Position numbers and translations under genes: made by a program. A DNA stretch of 37,181 nucleotides, taken from contig NZ_BCRE01000087.1 of NCBI RefSeq assembly GCF_001552435.1, forward strand, positions 1 to 37,181, in the 5' to 3' direction. Of the stretch, positions 8,263-23,844 are shown piece by piece (positions within the stretch are counted from its first letter, which is position 1; each line of letters opens with the position of its first letter). Origin of the DNA: Kribbia dieselivorans NBRC 106261 (lineage in GTDB: Bacteria > Actinomycetota > Actinomycetes > Actinomycetales > Dermatophilaceae). The notes beneath the pieces are model-generated. The model worked only from the letters and a program-made list of their open reading frames with translations. It was not told the origin of the DNA and ran no database searches.

Positions 8263-9315
8263 ATGGTGCGTCGGCTGCGGATCGCCGTGGTGGGGGCCGG
8301 CCATGTGGGCTGCCACTTGGGCGGGCGCCTCAGCCAGGTCGCCGACGTCTCGCTCATCGGCCGTCCGCGGGTCATCGACCCCATCCGCCGGGACGGGCTG
8401 ACCCTGACCGGTGGCGGTCGCCCGCCGCTGCACGTGGCGCCCGCGCAGGTCACCGCGACGACAGAGGGCTCGGCGGTGGGTGGCGCCGATCTGGTGCTGC
8501 TGACGACGAAGACGACCGCCACCGGTGCGGCGGTCCGCGAGGTGGCGCCCCACCTGCCCACGGACGCGGTGATCGTCACGTTCCAGAACGGGCTGCGCAA
8601 CGGGACCCTGATCAACGACGCGCTGCTCGAGGTCTTCCCCTCGGCGGCCTCCCGCCCACTTGTCCTCGAGGGGATGATCCCGTACAACGTCGCGCAGACG
8701 GCGGCCACGACCTTCCACCAGGCCTCCGCCGGGGTGTTGGTCGTGCGTGACCACCCCCGCGCCGACCCCTTCCTCCAGGCTGCACGAGACTCCGGTCTGG
8801 CCATCCAGCCGCGGGCCGACATGGACGGGATCATCGCGGCCAAGCTGCTGCTCAACCTCAACAACGCCGTGCACGCGCTCTCGGGGCTGTCGCTGATCGA
8901 GGAGTTGCGCGATCGCGACCTGCGCCGCGTCAGTGCGCTGTGCATCGAGGAGGCGTTGGCCGTCTTCCACCGCGCCGGGATTCGGCCGAGTTGGCTGACC
9001 GGGTTGCCGCCGAAGTCCATTCCGTCGCTGCTGCGCTCCCCCACGCCGGTGTTCGCGTCGCTGGCGCGGCAGGTGCTGCAGGTGGACGTGCATGCCACGA
9101 CGTCGATGGCCGACGACTTCGCCCGCGGGGTACCCACGGAGATCGGGGAACTGCAGGGTCGGATCGTCGATCTCGGTCGCGCCCACGGCGTCCCGACCCC
9201 GGTCTGTGCGCGGATCGTCGATCTGGTGCGCAGTGTCGAGGCGTCACCTCCGCCGCACGAACGGTGGAGCGGCGCACGCCTCCTGACCGCGGTGAGCGCG
9301 AGGATGAGTGCATGA
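8263..9315 (+). CDS. Ketopantoate reductase-like oxidoreductase (PanE/ApbA family)
   Basis: A 350-residue NAD(P)H-dependent reductase of the PanE/ApbA family, whose characterised members reduce 2-dehydropantoate to pantoate for coenzyme A synthesis. The N-terminal Rossmann motif GAGHVG (11-16) and the central AAKLLLNLNNAVHAL segment, with the conserved catalytic-Lys and Asn pattern, are visible. The C-terminal helical domain is present. The ATG at 8263 has GGGAG upstream; an open frame beginning at 8197 adds only unlike residues. The stop overlaps the start of the phosphatase gene by 4 nt. Many family members act on other 2-oxo acids, so the substrate is uncertain. Confidence 0.82.
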   Translation: MVRRLRIAVVGAGHVGCHLGGRLSQVADVSLIGRPRVIDPIRRDGLTLTGGGRPPLHVAPAQVTATTEGSAVGGADLVLLTTKTTATGAAVREVAPHLPTDAVIVTFQNGLRNGTLINDALLEVFPSAASRPLVLEGMIPYNVAQTAATTFHQASAGVLVVRDHPRADPFLQAARDSGLAIQPRADMDGIIAAKLLLNLNNAVHALSGLSLIEELRDRDLRRVSALCIEEALAVFHRAGIRPSWLTGLPPKSIPSLLRSPTPVFASLARQVLQVDVHATTSMADDFARGVPTEIGELQGRIVDLGRAHGVPTPVCARIVDLVRSVEASPPPHERWSGARLLTAVSARMSA

Positions 9316-9851
9316 GCACCCCTGCATACCGCATCCACGTCGTCTGCACCGGCAACATCTGCCGTTCCCCGATGGGGGAGTTCCTGCTGCAGGAGGCCTT
9401 CGACGACGCTGGGCTCGGTGACCTGGTCGCGGTCGACTCCTCCGGCACGACGGCGTGGGAGGAGGGCAACCCGGCCGACCCGCGCACGCTGGCCGCGCTC
9501 GCCCGCAACGGGCACCACGCCATCACGGATCGCAGTCACGTCGCCCGCGTCTTCGACCGCACCTGGTTCGGTGATCTGGATCTGGTGCTCGCCGCCGACG
9601 AGGGGCACTACGCGACCCTGCGGCGGTTGGCGCCGACCCCGGGGGACCGGGACAAGGTGGCGATGTTCCGCAGTTTCGAGCCGGGGCTGCCGGTGGGCCG
9701 CCAGTCGATGGACGACCCGTGGTACGGCGACGACGCCGCGTTCGACCGGACCTACGCCGAGATCAGCGCTGCGGTGCCCGGGGTCGTCGAGTTCGTGCGG
9801 GCGGCTCTGGACGTGCCGGGCCCCGACGCTCCGCCGGTGCCCGAGCGCTGA
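9312..9851 (+). CDS. Low-molecular-weight protein tyrosine phosphatase
   Basis: A 179-residue cytoplasmic or secreted phosphatase of the LMW-PTP family. The P-loop VCTGNICRS near the N-terminus gives the CX5R signature (Cys12, Arg18), and the general-acid region appears later as DDPWYG. The start overlaps the upstream reductase (ATGA), so the two are co-translated. The length is close to the actinobacterial PtpA type. The C-terminus is extended by a Pro-rich tail. Its target cannot be inferred from context. Confidence 0.92.
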   Translation: MSTPAYRIHVVCTGNICRSPMGEFLLQEAFDDAGLGDLVAVDSSGTTAWEEGNPADPRTLAALARNGHHAITDRSHVARVFDRTWFGDLDLVLAADEGHYATLRRLAPTPGDRDKVAMFRSFEPGLPVGRQSMDDPWYGDDAAFDRTYAEISAAVPGVVEFVRAALDVPGPDAPPVPER

Positions 9852-9902
9852 CCCGCTTCGCCGCCCCCTCCCCCGCTCCCCGCGTCCCCCGCGGTTCGCC
9901 TC

Positions 9903-9956
9903 CCCCACGGTTCGAGGTAATAGGGACCGTTACAGCGGTCGCTAATACCTCGAACC
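9903..9956. repeat. 54-bp hairpin repeat, copy 1
   Basis: This is the first of two identical 54-bp units. Within it, 9909-9929 pairs with 9936-9956 (21-bp arms, 2 mismatches) around the 6-nt loop TTACAG. It lies between the convergent phosphatase (+) and membrane protein (-) genes, where it could act as a bidirectional terminator. There is no U-run. The next copy follows after 9 nt. Confidence 0.85.
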
Positions 9957-9965
9957 AACTGGGGA

Positions 9966-10019
9966 CCCCACGGTTCGAGGTAATAGGGACCGTTACAGCG
10001 GTCGCTAATACCTCGAACC
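9966..10019. repeat. 54-bp hairpin repeat, copy 2
   Basis: This is an exact duplicate of the preceding unit with a 63-bp period; the stem-loop occupies 9972-10019. Two identical long hairpins side by side could pair within or between copies. They are followed by a run of GGGGCGG-type repeats up to the stop of the gene at 10063. Confidence 0.85.
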
Positions 10020-10062
10020 GGCGCGGGGCGGGGCGGCCGGGGCGGGGCGGCCGGGGCGGGAC

Positions 10063-11010
10063 TCAGCCTCGAAGGGCGCGCTGAATGACGTCGAGCCACG
10101 GGTGGACGTCGGCCTTGGCAGCCGCAGACCCGGCGGCCGACTGGGGCGTCGGGCCGAGGTCGAGCGGGTTGTCCGAGGCCGGAGCCCGGCCACGACGTGA
10201 GCCGTCGGTGGTCGCGGACTCGTCCGCACGCAACTCCGCCAATTCGGCCGCGAGAACCTCGTAGGCCGCCTGCCGCTCGGCCGGGGTGGTCGCGTTCTCG
10301 TTGAGGTACGTCAACGACTTGAGCACCCGCTGCGTCGTCGCCTGCTCGGCCGGCGAGACCCGGTCCCGGTTGATGGAGGTCGAGTGGATCTCGGCCTCCT
10401 CGAGGGCCTGGGCGAAGTGGGCGACGGCCACCGCGTACTCCGACTGGCGCGCCGGCTTCCAGGCGGGCGGACCCGCGTCGCGCAGCCGGTCGCAGGCGAA
10501 CATCGCGTCGAGCGCGGCCGAGGTGTAGGGGTCGGTGACGTCGGCCATGACCGGGTGGGCCACGCGCCGGTCGGTCATGTCGAAGTAGTCGAGCAGGCGT
10601 GTGGTCAACTCGCGATTGCGGGCAACGAGGCCCTCCCAGTCGTGGGGCAGCCCGGCCGTGGTGCGCCAGTGCCCGAGCGACCCGAGCCGCGGCACGGCCT
10701 GGGCGACCGTCCTGGCGCGGCGGGTGACCGGTTCGGAGGTCACGAGCAGGGCCACCGCGAGGACCGCCCAGGCGCTGAAGACGAACCACCCGTAGAAGAG
10801 GAGCAGTGCGACGGTGACCGGGTGGTGCAGCCCGAAGACGAGGAACGTCGGGAAGGCCGCGATCGCTGCTCCGACGTGCGCTGCACCAGCGGCGACCCGC
10901 CGACGCACGTCCCCGGCCTCGCCGCGCAGGTGTCGCCATGACGTCCAGCCGAGCGCTGCCAAACCCATACCGAACCCGGCACAGCCGAGCCAGATCAACA
11001 GAGTGATCAT
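10063..11010 (-). CDS. Hypothetical membrane protein
   Basis: I do not recognise a family. The 315-residue product begins with a hydrophobic span (MITLLIWLGCAGFGMGLAAL), then has two further spans around residues 45-90. A long hydrophilic, mostly helical cytoplasmic region follows, rich in Ala, Glu and Arg, with a low-complexity stretch near residues 275-300. The ATG at 11010 is preceded by a good AAGGA ribosome binding site, which decides the start; an open frame running to 11079 is rejected. The gene is divergent from purB and convergent with the phosphatase gene. Confidence 0.75.
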   Translation of the reverse strand: MITLLIWLGCAGFGMGLAALGWTSWRHLRGEAGDVRRRVAAGAAHVGAAIAAFPTFLVFGLHHPVTVALLLFYGWFVFSAWAVLAVALLVTSEPVTRRARTVAQAVPRLGSLGHWRTTAGLPHDWEGLVARNRELTTRLLDYFDMTDRRVAHPVMADVTDPYTSAALDAMFACDRLRDAGPPAWKPARQSEYAVAVAHFAQALEEAEIHSTSINRDRVSPAEQATTQRVLKSLTYLNENATTPAERQAAYEVLAAELAELRADESATTDGSRRGRAPASDNPLDLGPTPQSAAGSAAAKADVHPWLDVIQRALRG

Positions 11011-13793: not shown

Positions 13794-13812
13794 TCCGCGC
13801 CACCCACCTCCG

Positions 13813-13872
13813 CCGAGTGATGGATCCGCGTGGCCTATCTACCCCGATAGGCCACGCGGATCCATCACTCGG
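13813..13872 (+). terminator. 27-bp perfect-stem hairpin
   Basis: Arms 13813-13839 and 13846-13872 are perfectly complementary over 27 bp with a 6-nt loop (TACCCC). It lies 20 nt after the lipoprotein stop and 70 nt before the oxidoreductase gene. It is most likely the lipoprotein terminator; the stem is unusually long for one. Confidence 0.75.
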
Positions 13873-13942
13873 GTGGGGGTGGGAATGATGCCGGCCCTCG
13901 GCTCGTTGGATGAAACATCAACCATCTAGGCGAGGATTCATC

Positions 13943-17795: not shown

Positions 17796-17858
17796 CGCCG
17801 AGGGAACAATCGAGGCGACGTAACGCGCAGTTACGTCGCCTCGATTGTTCCCTCGGCG
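17796..17858. terminator. 29-bp perfect-stem bidirectional terminator
   Basis: Arms 17796-17824 and 17830-17858 are perfectly complementary with a 5-nt loop. The hairpin lies between convergent copA (+) and the VOC gene (-), 20 and 16 nt from their stops. It shares the blocks CCGAGGGAACA and GGCGACGTAA with the hairpin at 23780-23844. Confidence 0.8.
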
Positions 17859-23779: not shown

Positions 23780-23844
23780 CCGCCGAGGGAACATTTCTGG
23801 CGACGTAAGCCCGCCTTACGTCGCCAGAAATGTTTCCTCGGCGG
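23780..23844. terminator. 30-bp stem hairpin, same family as 17796-17858
   Basis: Arms 23780-23809 and 23815-23844 match over 30 bp with one mismatch and the loop CCCGC. It lies just after the HAD gene stop on the minus strand and upstream of the DUF1206 gene. CCGAGGGAACA and GGCGACGTAA recur from the copA hairpin; the five bases between the blocks differ. Confidence 0.8.

Follow-up and report, generated by a model that had tools for sequence, protein, structure and literature searches.

Repetitive extragenic palindromes (REPs) of the GTAG and CGTC types are described as 20-40 bp long with stems of 5-13 bp, and G-T pairing is reported to be frequent in the GTAG repeats (PMC3733652). Stem-loop sequence families have been catalogued across 40 bacterial genomes (PMC2267715), and a spaced palindromic pair of Bradyrhizobium japonicum, GAATCCAT(N)23ATGGATTC, is given as present in 52 copies with its function left open (PMC5217627). 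For the high-GC actinobacteria, in which few terminators carry a U-tract, the manner in which transcripts end is presented as a matter of debate (PMC12288462); these statements, like the comparisons made below, hold for the parts of the four accounts that are drawn on here. No published description of the palindrome family that we report was found in a search outside which most of the subscription literature lies, and the matches listed were unrelated by title.

The window, by which we mean the whole analysed stretch of 37,181 nucleotides from Kribbia dieselivorans NBRC 106261, contains two 54-nt stretches, 9903-9956 and 9966-10019, which a repeat search of the window found to be 100% identical, with their starts 63 bp apart and a gap of 9 bp. 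The exact duplication of a 54-bp hairpin unit described in an earlier sequence-only reading is thereby confirmed, and so is the stem-loop with arms of about 21 bp that it had proposed: within each stretch, arms of 21-22 nt are 90-91% complementary and enclose a 6-nt loop. A single window hairpin folds strongly on both strands (+ strand, -35.1 kcal/mol, z -8.9, 0 of 200 shuffles equal; - strand, -31.7 kcal/mol, z -5.0, 1 of 200 shuffles equal). What is conserved is a 48-bp palindrome, GGTTCGAGGTAATAGGGACCGTTACAGCGGTCGCTAATACCTCGAACC, located at 9909-9956 and 9972-10019, and the six nucleotides 5' of it that are common to both copies, CCCCAC, are the end of a C-rich flank. The pair sits in a convergent intergenic region with the following features.

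9312..9851, + strand: low-molecular-weight protein tyrosine phosphatase gene (PF01451, E 9.2e-34), ending 57 bp ahead of copy 1
9899..9908, no strand: C-rich flank 5' of copy 1, counted into the unit (from sequence and flank statistics)
9909..9956, no strand: 48-bp palindrome, copy 1, of the pattern GGTTCGAGGT-N28-ACCTCGAACC (from sequence and repeat search)
9957..9971, no strand: 15-nt spacer, consisting of the G-rich tail of copy 1 (AACTGGGGA) and then the C-rich lead of copy 2 (CCCCAC)
9972..10019, no strand: 48-bp palindrome, copy 2, same sequence as copy 1 (from sequence and repeat search)
10020..10030, no strand: G-rich flank 3' of copy 2 (from sequence and flank statistics)
10063..11010, - strand: convergent gene, named a membrane protein by the earlier reading only (compared with Pfam), ending 43 bp past copy 2

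The phosphatase (PF01451) and the convergent setting (from gene calls, which in the window, the genome and the relatives alike come from our own codon-usage caller) agree with that reading, and the product of 10063-11010, which it labelled a membrane protein, has no Pfam match at E 0.001. Rfam at gathering score gave no match in 9700-10300, where two miRNA models stayed below threshold (36.6/197 and 18.4/90 bits). As for conservation of the window's own site, at 29 purB-anchored loci of relatives, defined by purB alone and compared in a way that detects arm variants only if they are strongly palindromic, no GGTTCGAGGT unit adjoins purB, save for one weak intragenic match.

The unit is not unique to this locus. 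At up to two mismatches, 96 sites of GGTTCGAGGT-N28-ACCTCGAACC are present in the window's genome (G000; 3.29 Mb in 310 contigs), and the reversed-pattern control gave 0 matches there. The ends of four contigs (L079, L087, L116 and L117) share the same 16 letters of the unit arm; these contigs end inside the unit, and 96 is therefore an underestimate, as the repeats seem to break the assembly. With at most one mismatch per arm and over a range of 30-89 bp, 59 cases in the examined stretches have an arm-to-arm length of 48 bp and one has 47 bp, and single values of 33, 63 and 66 are read as pairings of neighbouring copies.

In the family Dermatophilaceae of GTDB, which we take to be the Intrasporangiaceae, 61 of 186 genomes (that of the window included) have a match to the pattern and 30 have at least three. 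We counted genomes with three or more sites because single matches within the family are often of a chance type, with two mismatches and an unpaired core. The repeat is absent from many relatives, since a covariance model built from 93 copies finds it at E 0.001 in 76 of the 186 genomes, among which are those used for training, and in 27 of 53 genera; the filters applied are strict, and the counts per genome, being capped, are at-least values. Copy number is uneven among relatives (50 in G088 and 1 in G089; 29 in G193 and 0 in G192), and the named carriers include Terrabacter aerolatus with 6 sites, Intrasporangium flavum with 9, and Humibacillus sp. DSM 29435, in which the 250 letters surrounding the unit recur verbatim in G016. 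Other genera of the family have 48-bp palindromes with different arms, GGTTCGATGT, GGGTCGAGGT and GGTTCGGGGT. In a class-wide sample of 394 genomes the covariance model gave 4 matches at E 0.0001, all within the same family. Outside the family, the pattern occurs at 21 sites in Desertihabitans aurantiacus (Propionibacteriaceae). An isolated site in a planctomycete, Gemmata sp. (L131:4083-4130), has 15 complementary outer bases and reflects either chance or transfer. Members in other families of the order were considered and dropped, the matches listed there being two-mismatch sites with unpaired cores, which we read as chance coding matches, and a viral origin was likewise rejected with 0 exact matches in viral_contigs.

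An ungapped alignment over 48 columns, GGTTCGAGGTATTnnnCGnCGnnnnnnCGnCGnnnAATACCTCGAACC, accommodates 93 copies from 10 genomes (96 reference copies less four, plus the window copy; rows L213:7015 and L132:4974 were kept though they resemble chance coding matches). Its consensus, GGTTCGAGGT..ACCTCGAACC, is paired out to its ends, and 87.2% of the 2046 alignment cells pair. Sixteen of the 22 base pairs are changed on both sides, in 359 cells, where shuffling gives a mean of 149 and slid partners give no more than 152; cells here count sequences rather than events, and the copies are related. The outer arms are conserved across genera, and the cores vary yet mostly pair, with an inner stem that is nearly perfect in G000 and cores that are only partly paired in G015, G087, G016 and G069. 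G.U and A.C mismatches are equally frequent: 46 copies in tandem context, drawn from nine genomes and oriented along the upstream gene, show 31 of each, or 62 events in total. Since a preference for G.U would be expected of an RNA hairpin, this equality argues against a constraint on RNA pairing alone and points to one on DNA or on both strands.

The short conserved arm and the inverted pairs at gene 3' ends would also suit DNA uptake signals of the Neisseria/Haemophilus type, whose pairs form gene-end hairpins. However, the arm hardly ever stands alone: 111 exact arms in the examined stretches lie in palindromes and 12 outside them, and we read the latter as four units cut by contig ends, one truncated copy at a contig end, two arms of the 47-bp copy and five plain singles. 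The scarcity of single arms largely refutes an uptake signal, which we regard as very improbable.

The palindrome is bordered by characteristic tracts. Oriented by the neighbouring gene, the hairpin has 67% C in the 5 nt that precede it and 67% G in the 5 nt that follow. At least five G occur in the 8 nt after the hairpin in 75 of 89 flanks, compared with 6/68 other intergenic hairpins and 5/20 members of a second palindrome family, and at least four T occur in 1/89, 6/68 and 2/20, respectively; the other hairpins of the genome have 29% T in the first 5 nt after the hairpin. Tandem copies have 66% C and 68% G over 10 nt, and divergent copies carry the same tracts. In the right-hand 10 nt the G content is 47% in G087, 53% in G016, 52% in G069, 52% in G088 and 61% in Desertihabitans, and G015 has a weak tail, at 33% G; this set, which also serves for the doublets, includes at least one coding match of G000. 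The flanks are not an extension of the stem, their complementarity in G000 being 315/600 with a shuffle mean of 311. Because C and G tracts flank the hairpin, the unit is about 64 bp long and comprises a C-rich lead, the 48-bp hairpin and a G-rich tail, and the spacing of doublets (63-65 bp) agrees with this length.

That second palindrome family is itself present in the window, at 13811-13874, 17796-17858 and 23781-23843. Its members are of near-constant length (63 or 64 bp) with an outer arm CGYCGAG[TG]G and several alternative middle arms, and the examined stretches hold 22 intergenic copies, 10 of them convergent, and one coding match. Long palindromes with a recurring arm GAACGYGTGTGAAC.. 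occur in genus g2 (L164 and L170, from G188 and G185), further ones of the form TATGCCGC..GCGGCATA recur in several genera (L174, L175, L187, L191, L216 and L226), and another, GAACTACCGGAT.., recurs in G175 (L220). To judge from these sequences, the bacterial family seems rich in long palindromic repeats.

We placed 60 units relative to genes in the window and in 40 stretches of G000, which had been selected, as were those of relatives, for holding units (63 sites minus three with four arm mismatches, two of these intragenic and one at an edge). Thirty-four are convergent, 20 tandem and 4 divergent, these 58 being intergenic with both neighbours known, and 2 lie at stretch edges; intergenic regions of at least 60 bp in the same stretches number 53 convergent, 161 tandem and 88 divergent. 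Tandem units are mostly closer to the 3' end of the upstream gene (18/20), and by our own count the remaining intergenic DNA sums to 60 bp or less in 19 of the 34 convergent cases. In four copies the stop codon of a flanking gene lies inside the arm, in one of them that of both genes, and stop codons inside the arm also occur in G015 and G016. The ten-genome set of 158 copies, which includes at least one coding match of G000, has 71 convergent, 58 tandem and 14 divergent copies, 7 at edges and 8 inside genes called by our own caller, some of the last being chance matches; in G069 one of four tandem copies is closer to the upstream 3' end.

The unit is thus terminator-like by place, a hairpin shortly past the stop codon (49 of 54 convergent or tandem copies lie no more than 50 bp from a gene 3' end), and it is without a U-tract. 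For the doubled bidirectional terminator that had been suggested at this locus, the gene-end position fits, and the absence of a U-tract, together with a simple terminator scan of 9700-10200 that found none, does not. That absence is less telling than it seems, as other hairpins of the genome seldom have a U-tract. A G-rich tail strengthens the RNA-DNA hybrid. The repeat could nevertheless be a non-canonical intrinsic terminator of the 'I-shaped' kind, whose RNA hairpin, with no U-tract, stops transcription on both strands and whose arms would resemble one another only through descent of the copies from each other. Proximity to stop codons, enrichment between convergent genes, the great stability of the RNA hairpin and the rarity of U-tracts after other hairpins of the genome (6/68) are all consistent with this, and in mycobacteria, hairpins that lack a tail and lie within 50 bp of stop codons are said to predominate (PMC12288462). 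Against it stand the strengthened hybrid that the G-rich tail would give, the lack of a preference for G.U, and the fixed length and fixed arms, neither of which is required of a terminator, and we hold this account to be rather unlikely.

Close doublets have a regular arrangement. Of 16 neighbouring pairs in G000 and G088, 14 are in direct orientation at a distance of 63-65 bp, the exceptions being at 74 and 171 bp, and four neighbouring pairs of Desertihabitans are 72-82 bp apart. All 20 neighbouring pairs listed (sets from 7 genomes, with pairs in 3) have higher identity in direct than in inverted orientation, by a small margin in five of them, namely the G000 pair at 171 bp and the four of Desertihabitans. 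G088 also has a nine-copy tandem array with an exact period of 63 bp (L218:1796-2347, starts 1796 to 2300), eight copies of which are identical. Because close doublets are direct and regularly spaced in this way, local duplication fits the window's pair and is its likely origin on the sequence evidence. The recent duplication proposed earlier is likely to that extent; identity between the window copies is confined to the 48-bp palindrome and the 6 nt that precede it, and given this limit the two palindromes may have been homogenised after duplication.

The history of individual sites could be followed in eight syntenic pairs from two genera (three G087/G015 and five G069/G016), retained from 12 aligned candidates after excluding one wrong partner, two with flank identity of about 0.3 and the misregistered L211:7963, of which a one-base-shorter relative is visible in G016. 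These pairs keep 152/176 arm letters and 130/208 core letters, and of the 47 core pairs that changed, only 6 did so on both sides with pairing preserved. Syntenic cores are alike at 16.3 of 26 positions, compared with 15.9 and 14.0 for any cross pair in the better orientation. Core likeness within G000 is 15.4 of 26 (better orientation), between G000 and other genera 7.7-10.7, and for random palindromic cores in one orientation 6.9. Since the syntenic cores diverge roughly like nearby DNA, gene conversion of cores at fixed sites does not appear to be needed; given that these cores are scarcely closer to each other than cross pairs are, it may still occur. One site is common to three genera (G088, G015 and G016), is doubled in G088 and is missing in G089, where a decayed copy persists at another of the shared sites, and a site with a unit in G087 is empty in G015. 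At the G089 counterpart of a G088 unit site (L232), the unit is gone and the region is filled by an unrelated-looking short repeat in tandem, TCGACAGTGCA-like. We read these patterns as probably reflecting old, partly inherited sites with lineage-specific gain, local duplication and loss.

Symmetry of this kind could in principle be a functionless mutational by-product of template switching, in which one arm is corrected from the other. Paired changes would then be explained without selection, and the divergence of syntenic cores to about the extent of nearby DNA is compatible with it. Such a process leaves unexplained the conservation of the arms across genera as well as the near-constant length of 48 bp, the C and G flanks and the position at gene 3' ends, and we consider it improbable.

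The suggestion of a REP-like element holds broadly, in that the unit is palindromic, extragenic, present at 96 sites and shared with relatives, and the mobile-element idea attached to it is not refuted by the copy count. In the narrower sense the repeat is not a GTAG/CGTC REP. RAYT (PF01797) was not found in the window's genome, and the four of 186 family genomes that have it are all without the unit; RAYT-driven REPs were rejected on the absence of PF01797 from the window's genome and from every carrier among the 186. Eighteen of 27 listed proteins encoded between neighbouring units were scanned, and none matched a transposase above the cut-off. An autonomous element between units was also rejected, the matches being to AraC regulators, OsmC, glyoxalase, acyl-CoA enzymes and similar proteins, with two proteins having no match. 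A selfish, non-autonomous palindrome that is tolerated at gene ends and moved in trans by a putative enzyme would account for the patchy copy numbers (such as 50 against 1 and 29 against 0 in the genome pairs above), the many sites in distant Desertihabitans, the four copies with stop codons inside the arm, the site filled in G087 and empty in G015, and cores that resemble each other more within one genome than across genera. It is opposed by the absence of the Y1 transposase from the window's genome and all carriers in the family set (outside which Desertihabitans lies), by the lack of a transposase among the proteins scanned between units, by sites common to several species and genera, and by the fact that no clean insertion junction was observed; in our judgement it is a doubtful explanation.

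The reading that we prefer, and to which we give an even chance of being correct, is that the window's two hairpins are adjacent members of a REP-like repeat specific to the lineage, which sits a few bases past stop codons, acts as a two-sided gene-end element and is, at least in part, recognised as DNA. Its fixed length and conserved arms and the lack of a preference for G.U suggest that the palindrome is recognised as DNA by a putative symmetric, probably dimeric protein. The unit would serve as a boundary to restrict read-through coming from each of the two flanking genes, with the candidate protein on the palindrome forming a roadblock or docking site, perhaps acting together with Rho and the hairpin itself. 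Rho of M. tuberculosis is described as favouring purine-rich RNA (PMC12288462), a preference that counts against loading of Rho on the C-rich lead. Also at odds with the preferred reading are the small number of events (62) behind the G.U comparison, the weak G tail of G015, the 4 divergent copies among 58 classified, the tandem copies of G069, the 8 of 158 copies inside called genes, the many relatives that lack the repeat and the few double changes in syntenic cores. New copies would arise by local tandem duplication, of which the window's pair would be one instance, and by a putative dispersal route. A wider form of this reading, possible and put forward tentatively, is that the Intrasporangiaceae/Dermatophilaceae have a dedicated gene-end boundary system, in which a putative DNA-binding factor measures the 48-bp palindrome between C and G tracts by its outer arm and, roughly a helical turn inward of that, a CG step, stops or insulates transcription on both sides, and coevolves with the genus-specific arms (GGTTCGAGGT, GGTTCGATGT, GGGTCGAGGT and GGTTCGGGGT); the second family of 63/64 bp would be of the same design.

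The fixed length and genus-specific arms predict a specific binding protein, and about 100 closely similar G-tailed units offer a clean test set for transcript ending in actinobacteria. The family also provides a countable case of REP-like gene-end palindromes without tag or transposase, which are terminator-like and lack a U-tract.

Among described systems, the families of the stem-loop catalogue are multi-copy structured repeats of the same general kind, and the high-GC Gram-positives seen for it are Corynebacterium and Mycobacterium, with none of the Intrasporangiaceae seen in that part of the account (PMC2267715). The spaced pair of B. japonicum resembles the present repeat as an inverted pair of fixed spacing near gene 3' ends, and differs in sequence, length and phylum and in that its account, as drawn on here, gives no covariation, flank or ortholog data (PMC5217627). 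The repeat is REP-like by place, number and dynamics, and not by tag, size, transposase or dimers. Like REPs as described, it is extragenic, palindromic and numerous, and its copies lie mostly in convergent or unidirectional settings and hug 3' ends; some copies supply stop codons, sub-families differ by alternative, complementary bases in the stem, and the spread among relatives is uneven (PMC3733652). Unlike them, its palindrome is 48 bp long with arms of 21-22 bp, it has C and G flanks in place of an unpaired GTAG/CGTC tag, its close doublets are direct whereas REP dimers are mainly opposite, head-to-head, and, in contrast to what is reported of GTAG repeats, RAYT was not found with it and its palindromes show no preference for G.U (PMC3733652). 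With the mycobacterial 'I-shaped' terminators and the TRIT terminators, as described, it shares a hairpin close to the stop codon, without a U-tail and of actinobacterial origin, and it is set apart from them as a family of one recurring sequence and length with a G-rich tail (PMC12288462, PMC3526491).
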